A DNA stretch of 64,000 nucleotides from Peptostreptococcus anaerobius VPI 4330 = DSM 2949 (GTDB lineage Bacteria; Bacillota; Clostridia; Peptostreptococcales; Peptostreptococcaceae), in NCBI RefSeq assembly GCF_000381525.1, contig NZ_KB906606.1, positions 71,210 through 135,209 on the forward strand, given 5' to 3'. The position numbers and the translations under genes were made by a program. This document shows positions 14,477-54,130 of the stretch, in pieces. The first letter of the stretch is position 1, and every line of letters begins with the position of its first letter. Below the pieces are notes generated by a model, which was given only the letters and a program-made list of their open reading frames with translations, ran no database searches and was not told the DNA's origin.

Positions 14477-14533
14477 GACTGAATTTCGTAATTTTTACCT
14501 TGGTATTAACCTTTATTTTTAAGGTGTTCATCA

Positions 14534-14652
14534 TATACTAGCTTTCTTTATATACTAGTTTTCTTTATATACTAGTTTTCTTTATATACTAGCTTTCTTT
14601 ATATACTAGCTTTCTTTATATACTAGCTTTCTTTATATACTAGCTTTCTTTT
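14534..14652. repeat. Seven tandem copies of a 17-bp repeat
   Basis: The unit TATACTAGCTTTCTTTA is repeated seven times without gaps. Units 2 and 3 have T instead of C at position 9, and unit 7 ends in T instead of A. It lies between the pot promoter and the terminator of the downstream CWB2 gene, outside any coding frame. Copy number probably varies between strains. Confidence 0.9.
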
Positions 14653-38502: not shown

Positions 38503-41500
38503 CTAGAAGAATGACAACTGGTTCTTGTCACTCATCCCATCTAAACTTCCATGTTCAGAAAGCTTTTCAACTACAGTCTTAGATACCTTGGTCCTCTTTA
38601 TCAGGTCTTCTTTGGATAGAAATGCCCCGTTTTCTCTTTCCCTAGCTATACTAAGTGCTGCATTTTCTCCCATTCCCTGTAAAGCTACCATAGGAGGAAG
38701 TATTTTTTTATCTCCATCTAACTGAAAATCTGTAGGATGAGACCTGTATATGTCAACTTTTTCCATCTCAATTCCCCTACAAAGCATTTCTACTACAACC
38801 TCTAAGATTGTATACTGGTTGTTTTCTTTTGCTGTAGCTGAATTTCCTAGTTCTCTGATTCTTTCCATCTTAGCCCTGACTGCATCAAGTCCTCTTGTGA
38901 CTAGGTCAACGTCAAAATCTTCTACCTTGGTTGTAAAATAAGTCGCATAGAAGGCTTCTGGGTAATTGACCTTACAGTAGGCTATCCTAAATGAAGTCAT
39001 TACATAGGCAACTGCATGGGCCTTAGGGAACATATATTTTATCTTTTGGCAAGACCCTATATACCAGTCTGGTACATTATTGGCCTTCATTTCCTCTATA
39101 AATTCTGGCTTTAGACCCCTACCCTTTCTAACATTCTCCATTATCGTAAAGGCAAGCTTTGGTTTTAGTCCCTTGAATATCAAGTAGTTCATAATATCGT
39201 CTCTTGTTGAAATAACGTCTTTTATACCGATTACATTGGCCCTGACTAGGTCTTGGGCATTGTTTACCCAAACGTCTGTACCATGTGATAGACCTGATAT
39301 TCTAACAAGGGCGGCAAAGGTTGTAGGCTTGGTGTCTATTAGCATCTGCCTAGTAAACTTGGTTCCAAACTCAGGTATAGCAAGGGATCCAACTGGCGTT
39401 CCTATATCTTCTTCTGTAACTCCTAGGGCCTTGGTAGATGTAAAAAGTGACATGGTCTCAGGATCATCAAGAGGTATGTCCGTTATCTTGATACCGGTCA
39501 TATCTTCAAGCATCCTGATGATGGTCGGACCGTCGTGTCCTAGTATGTCTAGTTTAAGGATTCTACCACTTATGGAGTGGTAGTCAAAGTGGGTAGTCTT
39601 TACTCCACATTCCTTGTCGTTGGCTGGATATTGGACTGGTGTAAAATCATGTATATCCTTGTAGTCTGGAACTACCATTACACCACCTGGATGCTGGCCA
39701 GATGTCCTCTTGACACCCGTACATCCCTTGGATAACCAGTCCATTTCAGCTGCAGTCATGTCCAAAAACTGCTCTTCAGAATACTTCTTGACATAACCAT
39801 AGGCTGTCTTATCCTTTACCGTACCTATTGTACCTGCCCTAAAAGTGTAGCCTTCTCCAAATAGTTCTTCTGTATACTTATGGATTGTAGGCTGGTAGGT
39901 TCCCGAAAAGTTTAGGTCTATGTCTGGCTCCTTGTCACCCTCGAATCCTAGGAATACTTCAAAAGGTATATCATGGCCATCCTTTATCATCTGAGTACCA
40001 CAATCCGGACACTTTTTAGGAGGAAGGTCAACACCTGAACCCCACTCGCCGATTGCAAAGAACTCACTATGCTTGCAGTCTGGATTAGGACACACATAGT
40101 GGGCTGGTAGGGGATTAACCTCTGTTATATCACTCATTGTCGCAGCAAATGAAGATCCTACCGATCCACGAGACCCAACTAAATAACCATCTGATAGGGA
40201 CTTGGCAACTAGTTTGTTGGCTATGATATACATGACCGCATAACCATTACCAATTATGGAATTTAGCTCTCTTTCAAGTCTCTTAACAACTATGTCTGGA
40301 AGTGGCTCTCCGTATATCCTTCTAGCTTTTTCATAGCACATAGACCTTAGTTCCTTGTCTGATCCTTCAATCCTAGGTGGATAGGTTTCATCTGGTATAG
40401 GCTTTATATCTTCAAATATGTCTGCTATCAAATTTGAGTTAGTAACTACAACCTCATAGGCCTTGTCTTTGCCAAGATAAGAAAACTCCTCCAACATCTC
40501 ATCAGTTGTTCTAAAGTACAATCTTTCTGATTTTGACTTTCTACCATATCCCTGAGAATACTTGATAATGGTCCTATAAATGGCGTCCTTGGCATCCAAC
40601 ATATGGACATCCCCAGTTGCTACAACAGGTTTGTCGTACTGTTCGCCAAGCTTTACAAGTTTTTTATTTATTTCTTTTAATTCTTCTACAGACTTTAACT
40701 CACCACTTTCAACAAGATACATATTGTTTTCTAGTGGCATTATCTCTATAAAGTCATATAATTCCAAAATCTTCTCTATCTCTTTTTCAGACTTGTGTCT
40801 TACAACAGCATTATATAGTTCTCCACTTGAGCAGGCAGAACCAACTATAAGACCCTCTCTTTTTTCTAGGAGTAGGCTCTTAAGTATCCTTGGATTTCCA
40901 TAGAGGTGTTCGATATGGGAATCTGTAATCAACTGGTATAGATGCTTTAAGCCAGTCTGATTTTGTGCATAAATAGTAGCATGGCTAGGCCTTAGCTTTT
41001 CATAATCTACCTTTCCATAGACCCTATTTACATCTGACAGTTTATTTATTCCCTTTTTCTTGAATATCTCGAGGTATTTAATAAATACCTCCGCAGTAGC
41101 CTGGGCATCATTTACAGCCCTATGATGACCAGATAGGACAACTCCCATCTCCTTGCACACCTTATCTAGGGAAAATCTTTTTAAGTTGGTATTTATTATC
41201 CTAGCAAGTGTAAGTGTATCCACCTTCTCAAAGTTGTATTCAAGACCCAACTGCTGACACTTTTGGTATATAAAACCAGTGTCAAAGTCTGCATTGTGGG
41301 CAACCAAGACAGAATCCTTGGCAAACTCTAAAAATTCAGGCAGGGCTTCTTCAAGGCTAGGAGCATCCTTAACCATCTCATTGGTAATCCTAGTCAACTC
41401 CTGGATCTGATAGGATATATCCATCTTTGGGTTTACAAAGGTTGAGAAGCTATCCACTATTTCACAATTTTGTACCTTGACTGCACCTATCTCCGTAAGA

Positions 41501-45202: not shown

Positions 45203-46345
45203 CTACTTAACAAAATCATTCTTCTTTAGTGACTCTATAGCCTTGTCAAGTTTCTCAGGTGAAACCATAACTATCGGTCCTGTACAACCCATACCACTTT
45301 CAGCATAGATGCCATCCTTCCAAAGGGCCTTTACAGCATCTTCTAGGTCTAGGATATCAACTCCAGCTATACCTTCAGTTACAACTTCCTTTGGTGGAGC
45401 TACGACTTCCTCAGATTCAGTCTTTGGAGCCTTCTTAGACTTTAGATCAGCTAATTCCTTGTCAAGACCGCACTTAAGTGCTTTCTTATATTCTTCTCTA
45501 GCCATAACATTTACCTGACCCTTTACTATGTCATAAGCATACCTTAGGGCATTGGCAACAACTGGGCTACCACTTGCACGAGATAGGATTAGGACACGTC
45601 TATCATAGTCTTCACCTATACCAGGTCCATAACCGAATCCCTGGGCCTCAAAGTCTCCACCTGTATTGAATGATGAGAATACCTTCATCAATAAGTTACC
45701 TGTTAGAGTATCAGTTACCATTACATCTGGAACACCTATTAATAGGTCGTTACCCCTCATTACAGATCCACCATCAGCTCTCATAGACTCAGCAAAGTCA
45801 AAATCATATCCCTGGTCTTTGATGCTTAATAGGACTTTTTCAACCTGTCTAGCACCATCTAGGTTTAATATACCTACACTTGGTCTTTCTATACCACAAG
45901 CCTTGGCTGTAGATATACCATATATTGCATTTCTTACCATAGCTTCTACCCTATCAGTAGCTGATGTACCTGTTGTAGTTGCTATAAACATTTCCTTAGC
46001 TCTTGCAGGAGTCACTACCCTACCTACTGTAGATACGCCTATAGGGAAATTGTAGTGCATAGTAACACAAGCATCTATTTCACCAGCGTCAAGTAGTTCT
46101 TCCATTTTTTTGTACATTTCGTCTTCAGTTTCTACTTCATAAGAAGTAAATCCTTCAGCCCCCTTACCTATAAGAACAATCTCAAACATACCCTTGTCTG
46201 CTAGTCTAGCTCCATTAATTAGGTTCTCAGGTCCATGTTCACTACCAAGAGTTGTAAGACCTACTCTTATTTTCTTTCCAAAATTACCACTTTCGATTGC
46301 ATCAGCAACTTCTAGTAGTACGTCAGATATTATTTTATTAGACAT
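45203..46345 (-). CDS. grdD: Glycine/sarcosine/betaine reductase component C, alpha subunit
   Basis: Component C takes the carboxymethyl group from selenoprotein A and releases acetyl phosphate. The 380-residue GrdD resembles PlsX-type phosphotransacylases: VADAIESGNFGKKIRVGLTT, GSEHGPENLINGARLA and GPGIGEDYDRRVLILSRASG. Near the end, Cys354 in ESGMGCTGPIVM is a good candidate for the acetyl-thioester cysteine described for the Eubacterium acidaminophilum enzyme. It starts 11 bp after grdC and is the last gene of the operon. Confidence 0.97.
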   Translation of the reverse strand: MSNKIISDVLLEVADAIESGNFGKKIRVGLTTLGSEHGPENLINGARLADKGMFEIVLIGKGAEGFTSYEVETEDEMYKKMEELLDAGEIDACVTMHYNFPIGVSTVGRVVTPARAKEMFIATTTGTSATDRVEAMVRNAIYGISTAKACGIERPSVGILNLDGARQVEKVLLSIKDQGYDFDFAESMRADGGSVMRGNDLLIGVPDVMVTDTLTGNLLMKVFSSFNTGGDFEAQGFGYGPGIGEDYDRRVLILSRASGSPVVANALRYAYDIVKGQVNVMAREEYKKALKCGLDKELADLKSKKAPKTESEEVVAPPKEVVTEGIAGVDILDLEDAVKALWKDGIYAESGMGCTGPIVMVSPEKLDKAIESLKKNDFVK

Positions 46346-46356
46346 ATTTCTACCCC

Positions 46357-47889
46357 CTACTCTTCTATCATATTTAGGGCTATATTTCTCATAGATTCTG
46401 CAATTATCTTTCTTATTTCATCCTTAGAGATTGAAGAAGCTTCTTCTACCACTCCTGGGTTTCTTTCAGCAACAAATGATACACCATCGAATAGGTTTGT
46501 CATTCTTCCTAGGAATAGACTTCCCTTACCAACGATCATAGCTCTATTCTTGTCTCCACTTGTTAGGTCATCAATTAAAAAACCTATGTATGGTACTCCT
46601 GATGGTATATGCCCCTGAGTTGGAGCCCATCCTGGTAGACCATGACCAGCTATAAAGCTCTTTAATTCCTTCTTTTCTATTTCGCCTCTAGTAGCAGCTA
46701 GGGCACCTATCATCTTATAGTTGGCTTCTGGTACATTACCTGCACCTGCTGGCTTAGTGATGTCTGGGTTCTGCATTTCTACTGAATATACGTCAACATC
46801 TGGTATCTTAAGTCCTAGTCTATCTAGTCCCTGAGTTATTAGGGCTGTCATAACTGCCTGAGGAGCTGAACCAGTACCAACTGTATGCTTACCAACAGAA
46901 TCAGTTCTTATGATTGGGTGTACTCCATCATTTTCTGATATTAGTATTGCAAATCCACCTACAACGTCTTCTAGAACTGGAAGACCCTTCTTAACATGGT
47001 CTTTTGCATTCATTCCTAGTTTTGCAGATGCTCCACCAGCAACAACCATAACGTTCTTGTGGATACCAGCCTTAACTAGAGCTGCTGCATTGATTAGGGC
47101 ATGAGTTGGTCCAGCACAGAAACCTCTTGTGTCAGATCCACTAGCATGAGTCATACCAGCCATTTCAGCTATAGACTTGGCAAAGTTTCCTCCACCTCTC
47201 TGGTTCATATCACCACAAGCCTCTTCTGAACACTCGATTACATAGTCTATCTCGTCCTTGCTTATGCCTGAACTCCTAAGTAATTCAAGAGCTGATACAA
47301 CACCTGATGCCTTAACAACTAGGTTTTCAAACATAGTGTGAGCATTTAAGTTTACATCTACATCATGGGCTCTCTTAACATAACCAACTAACTTGTCTTC
47401 GTGGTATAGACCCTGTGCAGTGTGTGATGCACATAATTCTTCTGCATCTGATATATCTGATCCCTTTAATAGACCAAAGAATGGCTCTAGTTCTGGGTAG
47501 TTTTCTTCTATAGTTGGTCTTACATTAGACACAAATTCTTCTGATAACTTAACTAGTTCAAATGCATCTGATATCTGCATTAATGCTATGAATTCATCCT
47601 GAGGTACTATCTGACCAAATTTACCTCTTCTCTCACCCTTGTGCTCTACTTCACACCAAGGAAGCTTTAAGTCTGCTAGGGCTTCTGGTCTTTCATTTCC
47701 AATATAAACCTGGTTTGGAAGATAGTTAACTACTTCTTCGTAGCTTCTTATCTTACTTCCAACTTCTTTTAAGAATTCTGAATCAGGATTTATTTCCTGT
47801 TCAACTGTACAAGTTGTACCGTTTTTGATTATCATGTCAGGAGTGTGTACTAAAACGTATCCTGCACCTCTAAATACTGGGTATGACAT
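46357..47889 (-). CDS. grdC: Glycine/sarcosine/betaine reductase component C, beta subunit
   Basis: The 510-residue GrdC has a FabH/thiolase-like fold: EAPC-type positions are seen as CSEEACGDMNQRGGGNFAKS and SDTRGFCAGPTHALINAA, with the N-terminal CTVEQEINPDSEFL typical of the family. With GrdD it converts the carboxymethyl-selenoether to an acetyl thioester and acetyl phosphate, which gives ATP through acetate kinase. A 276-bp gap with a strong hairpin separates it from grdB, so GrdCD expression may be tuned separately. Confidence 0.97.
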   Translation of the reverse strand: MSYPVFRGAGYVLVHTPDMIIKNGTTCTVEQEINPDSEFLKEVGSKIRSYEEVVNYLPNQVYIGNERPEALADLKLPWCEVEHKGERRGKFGQIVPQDEFIALMQISDAFELVKLSEEFVSNVRPTIEENYPELEPFFGLLKGSDISDAEELCASHTAQGLYHEDKLVGYVKRAHDVDVNLNAHTMFENLVVKASGVVSALELLRSSGISKDEIDYVIECSEEACGDMNQRGGGNFAKSIAEMAGMTHASGSDTRGFCAGPTHALINAAALVKAGIHKNVMVVAGGASAKLGMNAKDHVKKGLPVLEDVVGGFAILISENDGVHPIIRTDSVGKHTVGTGSAPQAVMTALITQGLDRLGLKIPDVDVYSVEMQNPDITKPAGAGNVPEANYKMIGALAATRGEIEKKELKSFIAGHGLPGWAPTQGHIPSGVPYIGFLIDDLTSGDKNRAMIVGKGSLFLGRMTNLFDGVSFVAERNPGVVEEASSISKDEIRKIIAESMRNIALNMIEE

Positions 47890-48068
47890 AATTTACCTCC
47901 ATTAAATAATAAATTTATATTACTTACTAGCAAACTGATACACTGTATTTGCCACTACAATATACAATCGCCTTTTTATATAATCTAGCCATATAGGACT
48001 AGATATTGATAGATATATGGAATTTATACAACACCAAATATATATTTTTCCAATATACAATATATACC

Positions 48069-48101
48069 AATATTGGTACACCAAAAAGGTGTACCAATAT
48101 T
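48069..48101 (-). other. Strong hairpin between grdB and grdC
   Basis: A perfect 14-bp stem AATATTGGTACACC/GGTGTACCAATATT with a 5-nt loop lies 65 bp past the grdB stop. No T-run follows on the minus strand. It may be an mRNA end-protecting or processing hairpin, or a weak attenuator. Confidence 0.6.
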
Positions 48102-48165
48102 TTAGTTACTATAGTGATATCTTTATAAAACTATAGTCTAGTTAGCTTGAATAACTATAGTCCAA

Positions 48166-49476
48166 TTAGTCTTCAAAAACAGTCTGTCCATCAACTTCAA
48201 CAGTCAATGCCTTTAGAGCCCTTTCAACTAACTTTCTTCTTAGTACCTTTTCTTCAGCAGCATCTAGTGCTGGGTTTCCAAGAGGGTGAGGTATAGCTAT
48301 AGTTGGAACTATTCTGTTCGCACCAACTGTTAGGGAAATAGGAACAACTGTACACATGTGAACTACAGGTAGACCAGCTCTCTCTATTTCTTTTACCATC
48401 GTTGCACCGCAACGAGTACAAGTGCCTCACGTAGAAGTCATGATAACTGCATCCACACCATCAGCTATCATCTTCTGTGCATACTCAGCCGCAAATGCCT
48501 TTGCAGAAGCAACAGCAGTACCATTACCAACAGTTGTATAGAACTTGTCATGTAATGATCCTATAACGCCTTCTTTTTCTAAATCTCTTAATACGTCAAC
48601 AGGAAGAACTCTGTCAGAGTCAGCATTAGCATATGATGGGTCATATCCACCGTGTGCTGTTTCCCATTTATCTTCTGTAAGATCTTCAACTCCTGCTATA
48701 GAATATTCACCATACTTTGTAGCATTTGAAGATTCTATTCTATCAGGGTTAGTCTTTGGAACTATACCACCTGATGTACAAAGAGCTATCTTACACTTAG
48801 ATAGGTCCTTAACTGCTGGGTTTGGATCAACTCTATCGAAGTTTGGCATTGGATATTCTGTTACAAATTCTTCGCCGTTTATCTTCTTGATAAGCATATC
48901 AACTGCTCTCTTTGATCCTCTTTCCTCTGCAAAGAAGTTAACTCTTACACCCTTTTCGATATAGCCTTCTTCAGCTGGAGAACCAATTTCTTCACCCTTA
49001 GCTAGTTTAGCAGCAAGCTTAGCCATCTTTGGAAGAGCCTTTCTCATACCTGCAGCAGAGTTAGCTGTTTCAACTATGTATAATTCCTTCTTATACATAT
49101 CAGCACCTGGGTTTTCTATGTACATACCTGTTAGGCATGGTATTTCTAAAGCATTCTTAACTACGCTAGTGATTGTACCACAAGCAACACCGTATCTACC
49201 AGCGTTGAATGCAGGGCCAGCTATAAATAACTGTGGGTCAAATCCTTTTACCATAGCCAATACTTCTTCGCTTGCTTCATCTATGTTTTCATTGAAGTAA
49301 CCATCACCACAAACTACTGTACCAACTACTTCAAACTCTTCTCCTAGCTTTGCATTTAACTGCACACTCACTGGAGGAAGTTCTTCTAGTACTTTTGGTT
49401 CAACGTCTGCTTTTTCTTCTCCACCTATACCGGCAAAGAACTGGTTCACATAATGAACTACTCTAATCTTTGACAT
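48166..49476 (-). CDS. grdB: Glycine reductase component B, selenocysteine-containing subunit
   Basis: Component B binds glycine as a Schiff base and hands the carboxymethyl group to selenoprotein A. The full product is 436 residues with an in-frame UGA at 48427-48429 read as selenocysteine 350, in VIMTST-U-GTCTRCGATMVK, the conserved GrdB active site. After it the frame continues IERAGLPVVHMCTVVPISLT to the end, as in the family. A hairpin at 48400-48414 places GGU in the loop 18 nt after the UGA, like a bacterial SECIS. The RBS AGGAGG precedes the ATG at 49476; grdA ends 19 bp upstream. Glycine rather than sarcosine or betaine specificity follows from the operon, not from residues I can identify. 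Confidence 0.95.
48400..48414 (-). promoter_or_regulatory. Probable SECIS hairpin of grdB
   Basis: CGTTGC-GGT-GCAACG is a perfect 6-bp stem with a GGU loop, starting 12 nt after the UGA; 18 nt separate the UGA from the GGU, the same distance as in the E. coli fdhF SECIS. It is inside the coding sequence. Confidence 0.7.
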
Positions 49477-49495
49477 TATTATACCTCCTGGATTC

Positions 49496-49972
49496 TTATA
49501 AGTATTTACAGAATTCGTCTCTTATTTCAGCCATTTCTTCAGATATTTCATCACAGTCAAGTACCATTTCCATCATACCTACCTGTTCTTCGTAAACAGC
49601 TTCATCAAACTGTTCTTTCATTTCTTCTTCAACAACATGGAATACGCTTAGTCCTAATTCTACTCCTGCAAGAGGTCCAGCGAATGTAGGGTCACCTGCT
49701 GTTACTGTTTCAGCTGCAAGACCTGCAGCTTCGGCTTCTGCGGCACCTAATAAAACCACAACATTTTCAGCTCCGAACTTGTCGGCAGCATCCTTTACTC
49801 TGTTCTGGTTTTCAAGGTCCATAGCCCCAGCAGCTGTTCAGACGAAGCATTCTGTAGATGAAAATACTACTTCAGCGCCGTCAACAGTTTTAACACATTC
49901 TTCGATAGCAGGACCAGGTATACCGTCTCTGTCACCGATTATTATAACTTTTTTATTATTTAAAGTTGTCAT
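49496..49972 (-). CDS. grdA: Glycine reductase selenoprotein A
   Basis: GrdA is the small selenoprotein common to glycine, sarcosine and betaine reductases; its selenium carries the carboxymethyl group and is re-reduced by thioredoxin. The product is 158 residues from the ATG at 49972 (AAGGAG upstream). An in-frame UGA at 49838-49840 is selenocysteine 45 in [15 protein letters not shown], the family signature. The N-terminal part reads [21 protein letters not shown] standard reading would wrongly call only the last 108 residues. It lies between a 314-bp repeat-rich spacer after grdE and grdB. Confidence 0.97.
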
Positions 49973-50286
49973 AACGATTATCTCCTTCTTTTATTTTTGT
50001 TTTGTCTTTGTCTTCTTATTTTTTGTCTTTTTGTATTTGTCTCTTGTACTAATATCTTTTGTATTTGTCTTTGTCTTTGTCTTCTTATTTTTGTCTTTTT
50101 ATTTGTCTTTACTGCTAATATCTTTTGTATTTGTTTTTAACTAATATCTTTGTATATTTCTTCTCTACTAATATCTTACTAATTTTGTCTTTTTACAAAA
50201 ATAATTTTATCTTTGTACTTACTACTAATATCTCTATTTTTTCACAACTAATATACTTTTACTAATATCTAAAAATTAAGTCTTAC
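49973..50286 (-). repeat. A-rich repeat spacer between grdE and grdA
   Basis: In the mRNA sense this 314-nt spacer is strongly A-rich and poor in G and C. AGATATTAG occurs exactly six times (complement CTAATATCT at 50049, 50115, 50141, 50168, 50225 and 50262) with one variant at 50248. The part next to grdA is dominated by GACAAA and related hexamers. It has no coding frame in the sense direction and little ability to fold. Confidence 0.85.
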
Positions 50287-51573
50287 TTAGAATGTCTTTG
50301 CTGTTAGGAATCCGAATCCTGTTTCATTTGTAGCACCAGTGATTGCCTGGATTTCTATTTCTATTGATCCATCTTCTCTTAGAGAATGTTCGTTACCACC
50401 AGCTATTATGTTTACAAATTCAACATGTCCTATAACTCTATCAAGCTTTGGAAGAACTACATACTGGTTAGCGTTACCACCTGTTACAACTGCGTCTGCC
50501 TTAGCATCTGCATCTGCTAGTGACTGAGATGCACCATCTCTACCAGCATACTCATCTGTTACTATAACAGTCTTAACACCTACAGTTTCTATCTTCTTAC
50601 AGTTCATTATAAGGTCTGTATCTGGGTTACCAAATCCTTCCTGAGATACTATTACAGCATCTAGGCCTAGGTACTTACAAAGCTTAGATGTCCAGTTAGA
50701 AGATCTTTCCTTATCAGCTAGGTATACATTTTCGTTTGTTATAATAACACCTAAGAAGTTGATTGACTTTCCGTGCTGTGCATATAATTCTTCGATTACA
50801 CCATTGTTTAAGTGTACATATGTTGGGTTCTTGTCACAAGCAGATACACAGTTTCCTGATACTATAGCTCCGTCCATTACTTCTGTTGGATATAGTAATG
50901 TTGGAACTATCTGCTTAGCATCTACACCATATACATATGTATCATGTAGTAATCCCTGAGTCTGTAGCATGTATACATATCCTACCTTTGGTAGTTCTGG
51001 ATACTGAGCTATCTGCTCTAATAGAGGCTTTGTTTCAAATGTCTGAACTTCTTCTGCTTGCATATCTCTTGCAAGCTCACCAAGATATCTAGCTGCCTTA
51101 AATCCTAAGAATCTAAGTGATTTTTCATGGTCATGCTGCTTTACACCTTCAGCTGGTTCAGCTATTAAAACTAGGTTTACAGTCTTTGAGAATGGAGTAT
51201 ATTCAGCTCCAAGACCAGTCATGTCTATTATACCTTCCTGGAAACCAACTACCTTACCAGTTGTTACAACAGCCATACCCTTTAATACATGAGTTCTACC
51301 TTCACCAACAGTATCAACTTTTGATAATACTCCTGGGAATATTCCTCCGTTACCTTCTACCTTTACTCTTGGTTCGATAACATCCTTTACAGGTGTGATT
51401 CTAACACTTTCGCCTGGTCTTGCGATATCTAGGTCAACTGAAGCGATATGCTCATCATCCCAAATTGTGTTTATCATTTCTTCCTTGTTTACAAATAAAA
51501 CACCATTTTCTATCTTCGTAACATCTCCAAACTGGATGTCTTTTATGAAGATTTTGCCTATTTCAAGACGCAT
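50287..51573 (-). CDS. grdE: Glycine reductase component B precursor (pyruvoyl) GrdE
   Basis: GrdE is a proprotein cut in two; the new N-terminal cysteine becomes the pyruvoyl group that binds glycine. The 428-residue product has the cleavage site VMDGAIVSGN-CVSACDKNP with Cys242, the position described for this family. Other landmarks are the N-terminal MRLEIGKIFIKDIQFGD and the C-terminal GNEHSLREDGSIEIEIQA. It lies 225 bp after trxA and 314 bp before grdA. The RBS AGGAGG precedes the ATG. Confidence 0.97.
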   Translation of the reverse strand: MRLEIGKIFIKDIQFGDVTKIENGVLFVNKEEMINTIWDDEHIASVDLDIARPGESVRITPVKDVIEPRVKVEGNGGIFPGVLSKVDTVGEGRTHVLKGMAVVTTGKVVGFQEGIIDMTGLGAEYTPFSKTVNLVLIAEPAEGVKQHDHEKSLRFLGFKAARYLGELARDMQAEEVQTFETKPLLEQIAQYPELPKVGYVYMLQTQGLLHDTYVYGVDAKQIVPTLLYPTEVMDGAIVSGNCVSACDKNPTYVHLNNGVIEELYAQHGKSINFLGVIITNENVYLADKERSSNWTSKLCKYLGLDAVIVSQEGFGNPDTDLIMNCKKIETVGVKTVIVTDEYAGRDGASQSLADADAKADAVVTGGNANQYVVLPKLDRVIGHVEFVNIIAGGNEHSLREDGSIEIEIQAITGATNETGFGFLTAKTF

Positions 51574-51798
51574 AGGTTACCTCCTATTAAAATTATATTT
51601 ATTAAATTAACCAATTATACACTTGAATACTTTGGTATATCACATTTTAAATACTAAATATTGTATATTGTATTTCATGCATTCTATACTATATATTCAA
51701 CATTATATAATTGATAAATTTCAACTTATTCAGCCTAGCCAGCCCCTAGCAGGACTGGTTAAACTGAACTTTAAATCGTATTTGCCTAAACGATTATA

Positions 51799-52116
51799 TT
51801 AATAAAACTTCTTGATCATAGCTTCTATCTTAGCTATTTCTGCATCATCCTTAGTTATTTCATCTACCTTTTCTCCACCCTTATAGATAGTCATTGTTGG
51901 TAGTCCAAGAACCTTCTGCTTGATAGCAAGTCTTCTTGCCTTTGTTATATCCATTGAACAGAACTTAATCTTATCTCCATACTGTTCAGCTAACTTATGT
52001 ACATCTGGCATTAAAGCCTTACATGGTTCACATCCCTGAGACCAGAAATCAACGAACACATAACCTTCACCTTCTAATACTTCAGAATCGAAATTGTCTT
52101 TAGTTAATTCTATCAT
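51799..52116 (-). CDS. trxA: Thioredoxin of the glycine reductase system
   Basis: This 105-residue thioredoxin reduces the selenoprotein A site. The start is the ATG at 52116 with AGGAGG 7 bp upstream; a longer frame to 52212 adds 32 unlikely residues. The fold is clear (VFVDFWSQGCEPCKALMPDV, LGLPTMTIYKGG with the cis-proline). The active site is GCEPC instead of the common CGPC, a variant known from thioredoxins of amino-acid-reductase operons. It is preceded by trxB, its electron donor. Confidence 0.95.
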   Translation of the reverse strand: MIELTKDNFDSEVLEGEGYVFVDFWSQGCEPCKALMPDVHKLAEQYGDKIKFCSMDITKARRLAIKQKVLGLPTMTIYKGGEKVDEITKDDAEIAKIEAMIKKFY

Positions 52117-52305
52117 CTTAATACCTCCTGATATGATTTTGACTAGAATACCTAGTCTTATATATAAGTGTGAATTCTTTGTAAAGGCATAGTGAATACC
52201 TTTTTTCTTCACAAATATAGTCTTGGTTTTTAAACAAATTTTAATCTTATCTATACTCTTTTTATTCTATCTGTGTATTTCATATATTTTAGTTAAACTT
52301 GTATA

Positions 52306-53250
52306 CTATTCAAACTTGCTTGCTATATATCTTTCTGCCATTACTGCAGCTGTAGCACCATCGCTTGTTGCTGTTACAACCTGTCTAACAGGCTTTTGTC
52401 TACAGTCACCAGCTACAAATACACCTGGGATATTTGTAGTTGTATCATCAGTTGCTACAAAGTATCCAGCATCGTCACATTCAATTACGTCTCTAAACAT
52501 TTCTGTCTGAGGAACATATCCTATAAATACAAAGCATCCAAATGTACCATCTTCTTCATCAGCAAAGTACTCTGTAATTTCACCAGTTATCTTGTTCTTG
52601 AATACTATAGATTCTAGTATTCCGTCACCCTTTACTTCTTCAACAACTGTGTCTAGTAAGAAATCGATCTTAGGATTGCTTCTAGCCTTGTCTATAGCAG
52701 TTGGAGCACATCTGAATCCCTGTCTTCTATGAACGATTGTAACCTTTCTAGCAAACTTTGTAAGGTACATAGCCTCTTCTATAGCACTGTCTCCACCACC
52801 GATTACGAATACTTCAAAGTCTTCAAAGAAGTCAGCATCACAAGTAGCACAGTAAGAAACACCCTTACCTGTAAGTTCTGCTTCACCTGGACAACCCATC
52901 TTTCTTGGATTAGCTCCTGTTGCTACTACAACAGCCTTAGCCTTGTATTCAACATCAGCAGTCTTAACTATCTTTATATCTCCTGAAAAATCGAAGCTCT
53001 GTACATCTCCTCTTGCTATTTCACAACCAAATGCCTTTGCCTGCTCCACCATTCTTGCAGTTAGAGAAGGTCCTGTAGCATTCTCTACTGATCCTGGATA
53101 GTTGTCTACCTGGTGGGTTATTACTATCTGGCCACCATTTTTCTGCTTTTCAAGAATAAGAGTTTTTAATTTACCTCTTGCTCCATATAATCCAGCTGAT
53201 AATCCTGCAGGACCACCACCAATGATCAATAAATCATATACATTTTCCAT
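52306..53250 (-). CDS. trxB: Thioredoxin reductase
   Basis: The 314-residue flavoprotein passes electrons from NAD(P)H to TrxA. It has the FAD-binding GGGPAGLSAGLYGARG near residue 10, the redox pair CATC (SYCATCDADFFEDFEVFVIG, about 135-138), the second nucleotide-binding GGGDSAIEEAMYL, and the C-terminal PGVFVAGDCRQKPVRQV. Three 25-bp repeats lie upstream. It is the second gene of the operon after grdX. Confidence 0.97.
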   Translation of the reverse strand: MENVYDLLIIGGGPAGLSAGLYGARGKLKTLILEKQKNGGQIVITHQVDNYPGSVENATGPSLTARMVEQAKAFGCEIARGDVQSFDFSGDIKIVKTADVEYKAKAVVVATGANPRKMGCPGEAELTGKGVSYCATCDADFFEDFEVFVIGGGDSAIEEAMYLTKFARKVTIVHRRQGFRCAPTAIDKARSNPKIDFLLDTVVEEVKGDGILESIVFKNKITGEITEYFADEEDGTFGCFVFIGYVPQTEMFRDVIECDDAGYFVATDDTTTNIPGVFVAGDCRQKPVRQVVTATSDGATAAVMAERYIASKFE

Positions 53251-53308
53251 GCTTTTACCTCCGTATTTTTATATATTGTATACTTACACTTAATAAACAT
53301 AAATTGCC

Positions 53309-53387
53309 AGTTTGATATACATCAAGAATTACTAGTCTGAAATATATCAGGAATTACCAGTCTGGCATATATCAAGCAATAATTACC
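53309..53387. repeat. Three imperfect 25-bp repeats upstream of trxB
   Basis: Units start AGTTTGATATACATCAAGAA (53309), AGTCTGAAATATATCAGGAA (53334) and AGTCTGGCATATATCAAGCA (53359, with a 4-bp insertion); each ends AATTAC. They fill the gap between grdX and trxB and could be operator repeats or a simple local duplication. Confidence 0.75.
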
Positions 53388-53398
53388 ACTAGAAAATC

Positions 53399-53782
53399 CT
53401 ATTGGAATATCCTGTCGATCGTCTTTTTAATCAAGTCAAAGTCAATAACCCTAAAGTCGTCTTTTACACTCTCAGTCCAATTAGGAGTCATCTTATTTTT
53501 CTTGAACTTTTCAGCAGTGACTATAGCCTCTTCAATCAGTAGCAAAGACTGGATATCAAATTCTTCTGCTTCTTCTAGAACCACACTCCTATAGAGCGTT
53601 TCGTTTGGTTTGACACTACCATATAGGGGGTGAGTCAAAAGCTTATAACCCTTGTGGATTAGTTCTCTTGCCTTCTCAAGTATCTCAATATATGTTATAT
53701 CTTGATATTCAAGATTCAACTTATTGGAATTGAGTTCATTTTCAATCTGTTTAAATTTTTCGTTATTTGTCAGTAGTAACAT
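53399..53782 (-). CDS. grdX: GrdX family protein
   Basis: The product is 127 residues. The diagnostic GrdX segment LLTHPLYGSVKPNETLYRSV lies near residue 45-65, followed by DIQSLLLIEEAI. GrdX is a small protein of unknown function that is nearly always encoded at the start of glycine reductase operons. Here it is the first gene after the glycine riboswitch. The 5' end reads MLLLTNNEKFKQ, matching family starts. Confidence 0.88.
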   Translation of the reverse strand: MLLLTNNEKFKQIENELNSNKLNLEYQDITYIEILEKARELIHKGYKLLTHPLYGSVKPNETLYRSVVLEEAEEFDIQSLLLIEEAIVTAEKFKKNKMTPNWTESVKDDFRVIDFDLIKKTIDRIFQ

Positions 53783-53949
53783 ACGTCTCCCCCTGATCTT
53801 TTGTTCAATAAACTAATATTATTTCAGTTGTAAACTCTATTGCTAAATTAAGGTCGAATATGATACCACAATTAATTTGGTTATTTATTTAACCTTTATG
53901 AATATAATTGTCTGTTATTTCTTTTTATTCATAATCTTCTAATTACTTA
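53783..53949. other. Leader between the riboswitch terminator and grdX
   Basis: About 165 bp of AT-rich sequence with no clear coding frame or folded element; it is the 5' untranslated region of grdX when the terminator is read through. Confidence 0.5.
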
Positions 53950-53993
53950 TTATAAATAAAAAACAAGGGAGATAAAGTGTCCTTTATCTCCCT
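53950..53993 (-). terminator. Riboswitch-controlled terminator
   Basis: A perfect 12-bp stem AGGGAGATAAAG/CTTTATCTCCCT (53966-53977/53982-53993) is followed on the minus strand by TGTTTTTTATTT. It comes directly after the glycine aptamer, so it is the expression platform. Confidence 0.88.
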
Positions 53994-54110
53994 GTCAGCA
54001 GCTTTCAGAGTCACGTCCAGTCTTATTACTTTTACCTGAGAATTTCATTTTGCGCTTGACGTTCGCAATACTTGTCCCTTCGGTGGCTATTTTTAGCTCT
54101 CTCCTAAGAC
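53992..54110 (-). promoter_or_regulatory. Glycine riboswitch of the grd operon
   Basis: On the minus strand the conserved glycine aptamer core is visible in order: AGGAGAGAGCT, GCCACCGAAGGGACAAG, CTCAGGTAAAAG, AGACTGGACGTGACTCTGAA. Only one full aptamer is seen. An intrinsic terminator follows at once, so glycine binding probably lets transcription run into grdX-trxB-trxA-grdEABCD. This links the fermentative reductase to its substrate, as known for some Clostridia. Confidence 0.88.
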
Positions 54111-54130
54111 CTTCAACCGATATAAATTAT

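Follow-up and report, generated by a model that had tools for sequence, protein, structure and literature searches.

Why is grdA, the gene for the selenoprotein carrier of glycine reductase, preceded in this Peptostreptococcus genome by 314 nt of A-rich, repeat-filled DNA? The spacer was analysed within the window (the whole stretch of 64,000 nucleotides), in further parts of the same genome and in the grdA loci of relatives. That the spacer serves grdA as a ribosome-loading leader, rich in A and single-stranded, stands, in our judgement, at about an even chance. As a feature it is striking, though probably an ordinary member of its kind.

Position in the glycine reductase operon

The spacer occupies the exact gap on the minus strand between the stop codon of grdE and the ATG of grdA, at 49972 (Table 1). 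The trx, grdC and grdD names are presumptive and were assigned in part from tblastn comparisons between operons. Two further long spacers in the operon, trxA-grdE (51574-51798, 225 nt, -55 kcal/mol) and grdB-grdC (47890-48165, 276 nt, -72 kcal/mol), were predicted to be strongly structured, and neither gave an Rfam match at gathering scores. In C. difficile, the grd operon has a promoter and a glycine riboswitch upstream (PMC10880999), and a strong rise of GrdA in stationary phase is described (PMC6110889); neither statement bears on a presumed excess of GrdA relative to GrdB or GrdE.

Table 1. Features of the glycine reductase operon and of the grdE-grdA spacer (positions in the window).
Feature	Position	Strand	Remarks
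Glycine riboswitch aptamer	54014-54116		upstream of the operon
trxB	52306-53250	-	
trxA	51799-52212	-	ORF; likely start inside
grdE	50287-51573	-	428 aa
grdE-grdA spacer	49973-50286	-	314 nt; coding strand A57/T22/G15/C7
AGATATTAG copy 1	50262-50270	-	
ATATTAG of variant AGTATATTAG	50248-50254	-	
AGATATTAG copy 2	50225-50233	-	
AGATATTAG copy 3	50168-50176	-	
AGATATTAG copy 4	50141-50149	-	
59-nt segment, first copy	50080-50138	-	duplicated at 66-nt offset, 81% identical
AGATATTAG copy 5	50115-50123	-	
ACAAA-dense start-proximal zone	49996-50106	-	spacer positions 181-291; 13 of 18 ACA and 12 of 17 ACAAA begin there
59-nt segment, second copy	50014-50072	-	TRF
AGATATTAG copy 6	50049-50057	-	
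Shine-Dalgarno-like AAGGAG of grdA	49982-49987	-	from sequence; aligned with congeners
grdA	49496-49972	-	158 residues; in-frame UGA at codon 45, read as selenocysteine
grdB	48166-49476	-	in-frame UGA; SECIS_4 match at 48389-48426
grdC	46357-47889	-	
grdD	45203-46345	-	

Composition and repeats of the spacer

The sequence-only reading had described an A-rich spacer of this length and position with six copies of AGATATTAG, one variant and many GACAAA hexamers, and all of this was reproduced: A makes up 57% of the coding strand, which carries six exact copies, one AGTATATTAG variant and ten GACAAA. Spacer positions 201-300, adjoining the start codon of grdA, consist of 68% A and 8% T; the first part past the grdE stop (positions 1-120) has 47% A and 35% T and holds three of the six AGATATTAG copies. 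The distances from copy to copy are irregular (37, 57, 27, 26 and 66 nt), and no further copy was found outside the spacer on either strand of the whole window. Upon dinucleotide shuffling (1000 shuffles), AGATATTAG appeared 0.016 times on average and at most once, and the spacer has fewer distinct 6-, 8-, 9-, 10- and 12-mers than every one of 1000 such shuffles; the repetition is therefore beyond chance.

The 21 C residues of the spacer are largely confined to one context, with 18 lying within ACA and 17 within ACAAA. ACAAA occurs 17 times versus 4.2 ± 1.7 in dinucleotide shuffles, a count that none of 500 shuffles reached. The 18 ACA are above the mononucleotide expectation (6.6 ± 2.1), but taken alone they represent no excess, because the dinucleotides already dictate their number (17.2 ± 0.4). 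Among the papers listed by a literature search for the repeat, none dealt with it by its title.

The spacer was also considered as coding sequence and rejected, with 7, 9 and 11 stops in the frames of the coding strand and three to five in those of the other strand. An ORF of 121 aa on the other strand (49779-50144) overlaps grdA and was taken as a chance occurrence.

Folding of the spacer

The low folding capacity claimed by the sequence-only reading was confirmed and could be explained by composition. The spacer has an MFE of -19.6 kcal/mol over 314 nt, and folding as weak or weaker was seen in two of the 812 tiles of this size taken from the window every 157 nt on both strands. Still weaker folding was obtained for shuffles that keep the dinucleotides of the spacer (-14.6 ± 3.0, 200 shuffles), so that its weak folding is an effect of composition. 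The folding model gave 98% unpaired nucleotides at positions -70 to -15 of grdA, versus 29-57% for trxB, trxA, grdE, grdB and grdC. The Shine-Dalgarno and start region of grdA was predicted to be 54% unpaired, second to that of grdB with 71%.

Leaders of the same operons

The leader of grdA was compared with other leaders of the same operons, each comparison covering 17 to 59 of 81 loci, with whole spacers taken after removal of the Shine-Dalgarno part. Lineage groups were assigned by hand from the record names and each unassigned locus was its own group. Of 37 groups, 35 had more A in the whole grdA spacers than in those of grdE (p = 7e-8), and 34 had weaker folding per nucleotide; upon comparison with grdC, the corresponding counts, again out of 37, were 34 (p = 5e-10) and 37. 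When leaders of 60 nt were used and the window was removed, grdA was higher in A in all 13 groups available for grdE and in 13 of the 14 for grdC, and its folding was weaker in 11 groups in either comparison. Relative to grdB, A was higher in 20 of 24 groups and whole-spacer folding was weaker in only 10 of 24 (p = 0.37). At fixed length, no significant difference from trxA was found: with leaders of 30 and 60 nt, p was 0.14 and 0.35 for A, and 0.16 and 0.30 for folding. With whole spacers, p was 0.04 for A, and 19 of 24 groups showed weaker folding for grdA (p = 2e-4).

From these comparisons, grdA leans towards an open type of leader and trxA partly so, and grdE and grdC towards a structured type. 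The tie between grdA leaders and predicted openness is a correlation, and the grdE and grdC leaders are not neutral controls, since they possibly hold structures for reasons of their own.

Leaders elsewhere in the genome

For comparison within the genome, 464 kb were sampled (the window and twenty stretches of 20 kb), in which ORFs were called mechanically and are not annotated genes. The 60-nt leader of grdA has an A fraction of 0.72, which none of the 171 scored leaders reached. The next richest (0.67) precedes a protein that we take to be DnaK. Folding as weak as that of the grdA leader was present in three of the 171. Codirectional spacers of at least 150 nt had an A fraction of 0.38 ± 0.04 and at most 0.49 (n = 82); the grdE-grdA spacer, masked by the ORF filter, was compared with this list and is not part of it. 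The spacer is an outlier in A content within the genome sampled. Two congeners were sampled over 400 kb each, and none of the leaders there reached 0.70.

Across nine genomes of the genus, 73 ACAAA triples were counted versus 77 for a control with the reversed pattern, and in the own genome 12 versus 13, five of the 12 being located in the grdE-grdA spacer. These counts show no excess over the reversed pattern, and the idea that leaders of the genus generally carry ACAAA arrays was rejected.

grdA spacers in relatives

The nearest named relatives in a genome scan were P. porci, P. sp. D1, P. russellii, P. canis and P. faecalis. In the seven congeners that possess grdA, the spacer measures from 64 nt, as in P. 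faecalis, to 213 nt and contains neither AGATATTAG nor GACAAA, and in the alignment of the congeners similarity ends at the grdE stop and returns at the Shine-Dalgarno sequence. No match to GrdA was found in one further congener (G003). In the own genome, no second pair or array of AGATATTAG was found, and AGATATTAGT followed by AGATATTAG within 80 nt was found at this site only. A DNA search with the spacer in the nine genus genomes returned, besides itself, ten short matches with E values of 4e-6 or weaker. As far as these sequences go, the repeats are private to the lineage of this genome, the only one of its species in the comparisons.

In a wider survey, 155 of 162 loci were used, seven having no usable grdE-grdA pair, and several loci came from the same genome. 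They gave 107 distinct spacers, 105 of which measured at least 20 nt. A exceeded T in 104 of these 105. Their median length was 64 nt and the shortest had 23 nt, the 314 nt of the window being the longest; many relatives have spacers of 23-40 nt. The sequence-only reading had proposed a comparison of these spacers in relatives, and of the features that it named the composition recurs, but the repeats were in none of the seven congeners.

Repeat-rich spacers of other kinds were encountered. Asaccharospora irregularis (L013/L110) has a repeat-rich, A-rich grdA spacer of 177 nt with a different unit; repeats cover 72% of it versus 29% in shuffles, and none of 200 shuffles reached that coverage. 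In the Lagierella/Mediannikoviicoccus spacers L099, L102 and L107 (81-88 nt), ACAACTAAACT-type units were seen by eye, a weak case because 73, 16 and 37 of 200 shuffles, respectively, reached their coverage. A Paraclostridium spacer of 244 nt (L077) was more repetitive than its shuffles (1 of 200 reached it), and is better folded and less A-rich.

Conservation of the ACA motif was not observed among 64 distinct spacers of at least 50 nt, whose median density was 1.4 per 100 nt versus 5.7 in the window; only L099, L107 and L102 were above the latter value. Of the 80 grdA spacers with a length of at least 30 nt that remained after removal of redundancy, 11 contain AGATAT versus 5.5 expected (z 2.8, uncorrected for the number of 6-mers; 10 of 79 versus 5.2 without the window), and two contain GACAAA versus 3.0 expected, which is no enrichment. 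A motif shared among grdA spacers was dropped on these counts.

Comparison with known systems

By its sequence, the spacer fits two known systems, A-rich initiation contexts and ACA enhancers. In E. coli, enrichment of A is reported to act over the last 15 nt or so before the start codon (PMC7043885). The spacer resembles such contexts in being A-rich upstream of the start and may share their scarcity of structure; it differs from those described there in its tract of 300 nt combined with a good Shine-Dalgarno sequence, its activity being putative. In Salmonella, ACA motifs upstream of the Shine-Dalgarno sequence of yifK and dppA enhance translation without a strict position, and an ACAA repeat that promotes initiation without a Shine-Dalgarno sequence is mentioned as well (PMC3879156). 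The ACA of the spacer are likewise clustered upstream of the Shine-Dalgarno sequence. The Salmonella leaders have two to four motifs and are targets of the sRNA GcvB, whereas the spacer has 18 motifs, is not known to be the target of an sRNA, and its enhancement is putative. Neighbouring genes of one operon also differ in folding in the ORF-centric view of operon mRNA structure (PMC5318159); in contrast to that work, folding is here predicted from sequence, and for leaders rather than whole ORFs.

Proposed role as a ribosome-loading leader

As a ribosome-loading leader, the spacer would remain open while the other long spacers of the operon, trxA-grdE and grdB-grdC, are predicted to fold stably. 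It would offer a long track rich in A and ACAAA ahead of the Shine-Dalgarno sequence of grdA, and the 30S subunit may bind this track, perhaps through a protein of the S1 type. grdA would then be initiated on its own, 314 nt past the end of grdE, with a presumed effect on translation. The functional property would be the composition, with much A, little C and G and no folding; this composition recurs across relatives, and selection would act on it and not on length or repeats. AGATATTAG and the GACAAA repeats would be by-products of nested tandem duplications that lengthened the leader in this lineage; any benefit of the extra length is something that we infer.

The recurrence of A over T among the spacers argues for such a leader, as do the top rank of the start-proximal A content among the scored leaders, the unpaired stretch upstream of the start, the confinement of C to ACAAA, the higher A content and weaker folding relative to grdE and grdC, and the repeat-rich spacer of Asaccharospora together with, on weak statistics, those of Lagierella/Mediannikoviicoccus. 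A 461-aa frame with three S1-domain matches, encoded in the genome, is a further point in its favour. It is weakened by the fixed-length comparison with trxA and the folding comparison with grdB, by spacers as short as 23 nt elsewhere, by the ACAAA triples that are not enriched, by a Shine-Dalgarno and start region less open than that of grdB, by the three leaders that are equally unfolded, and by the reach of the A effect reported in E. coli, 15 nt and not 300 (PMC7043885). To the unstructured leader aiding translation that the sequence-only reading had suggested, the recurrent, open, A-rich composition lends indirect support; the part tied to the repeats found none.

If the leader works as proposed, it would provide a natural experiment on the distance upstream at which a track rich in A and ACA still raises initiation, and on the way in which the level of the selenoprotein carrier is set apart from those of its operon partners. 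Should the repeats be neutral, the case would call for caution, in that conspicuous repeats of a single lineage may accompany a composition that recurs more widely. In both cases, the contrast among the grdA, grdE and grdC leaders yields a simple prediction on operon tuning.

Tandem duplication and possible neutral expansion

TRF reported a repeat in the spacer with score 230, period 66, 2.2 copies and 87% matches. Besides the 59-nt segment listed in Table 1, a segment of 23 nt recurs without a mismatch (23 of 23) at an offset of 69 nt, and a hexamer periodicity (offset 6 nt) extends over 47 nt at 77%. Judged from these alignments, the spacer is lengthened by nested tandem duplication, with offsets of 66 and 69 nt. 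The array could presumably be labelled as a species-specific intergenic tandem repeat of the micro- or minisatellite type. It is like these in its nested units, its drifted copies and its absence from congeners, and unlike them in its strong strand bias (A over T) and its place directly ahead of a catabolic operon gene.

Intergenic arrays were counted at a TRF score of 60 or more and a period of 6 or more after a mechanical ORF filter. The window contains eight, the grdE-grdA spacer and seven others; a 400-kb sample of the own genome has 16, and two congeners have 9 and 15 per 400 kb. The earlier statement that the spacer is unlike any ordinary intergenic region of the window thus applies to its A content, but not to the possession of a tandem array. 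In P. porci, an A-rich ACAAA tandem array with a unit of 83 nt and 2.6 copies is located at L264:620-836 (G002 C7), followed by an ORF (929-1690) that is presumably sortase-like. In G003, a run of ACAAAT hexamers occupies the leader of an ORF (L185, C119 at about 39862-39922) which, read by eye, we take to resemble a Y-family DNA polymerase. Both arrays precede unrelated genes, so that tracts of this type are not tied to glycine reductase.

These arrays make a strong rival of neutral expansion, in which slippage and unequal tandem duplication would have acted on an A-rich gap under low constraint, leaving repeats and length without function. We regard this as a real, if tentative, possibility. 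It accords with the geometry of the nested duplications and the frequency of intergenic arrays, with the absence of the repeats from seven congeners and of a second AGATATTAG pair, with the short, weak matches in the genus and with a length far above the median. It accounts less readily for the start-proximal 60 nt being the A-richest of the leaders scored, for the asymmetry of A and T between the strands and for the near-uniform excess of A over T among the spacers. The A-rich, repeat-rich spacer at the same place in Asaccharospora also speaks against it, although the survey there did not cover other places equally. The two views are compatible: a selected A-rich leader would be a good substrate for slippage, and the extra length may be functionless.

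Three other arrays were noted. At 14533-14651, seven nearly perfect tandem copies of a 17-nt unit, AAAGAAAGCTAGTATAT in the minus-strand sense, are flanked by a terminator-like hairpin and the following gene. A unit of 25 nt is present three times immediately ahead of trxB (53302-53376), in the operon to which the spacer belongs. In G005, a tandem repeat (L244:4120-4655) contains ATCTACACTAAGTAGAAATT, which we take to resemble a CRISPR direct repeat of the Cas12a type.

Other explanations

RNase Y could enter the unfolded AU-rich stretch and split the trxBA-grdE mRNA from that of grdABCD, giving the parts different stabilities. The genome does encode RNase Y, and the A-rich, unfolded RNA is flanked by spacers predicted to be structured; no recognisable site was found in the spacer, however, and many relatives have as few as 23-40 nt at this place. 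An RNase entry site had been suggested by the sequence-only reading; beyond the gene for the enzyme nothing was found in its support, and we consider it improbable.

Even less probable is that the array is a length-tunable translation rheostat, with ACAAA/AGATATTAG units added or removed by slippage from strain to strain, every unit contributing ribosome-recruiting track. If this were true, the dose of GrdA relative to GrdE and GrdB would evolve fast, with the promoter and the glycine riboswitch untouched.

That repeated AGATATTAG or GACAAA is the binding site of an RNA- or DNA-binding regulator is very unlikely. Six exact copies of AGATATTAG, far above expectation, would suit such a site, but the copies are irregularly spaced, with no second pair in the genome and none in congeners, GACAAA is unenriched across grdA spacers and AGATAT is weakly enriched. 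An RNA-binding-protein site, likewise suggested before, gained no ground: no Hfq was matched in the genome at E<=0.001 by a search that found it in five of 14 control genomes, and the spacer (49973-50286) gave no Rfam match at gathering scores nor at E<=5. An internal promoter was considered as well and rejected, since no sigma-70-like site was found on the coding strand of the spacer at a scan threshold of 9 of 12. One such site is located on the other strand (50241-50268), and the scanned region 49400-54000 has 21 versus 17.8 ± 4.9 in shuffles. An assembly artefact in a repeat-rich stretch would be conceivable in a draft of 68 contigs, but is hardly credible for a tract inside a 146-kb contig, with unique coding sequence on both sides and 59-nt copies that differ by 19%.

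Glycine reductase genes in Gemella records

Five records named Gemella (Bacilli; L088, L096, L097, L100 and L103) contain a grdE that is 81-84% identical to the query, with grdA downstream of it wherever the spacer was readable. This suggests horizontal transfer or mislabelled bins.
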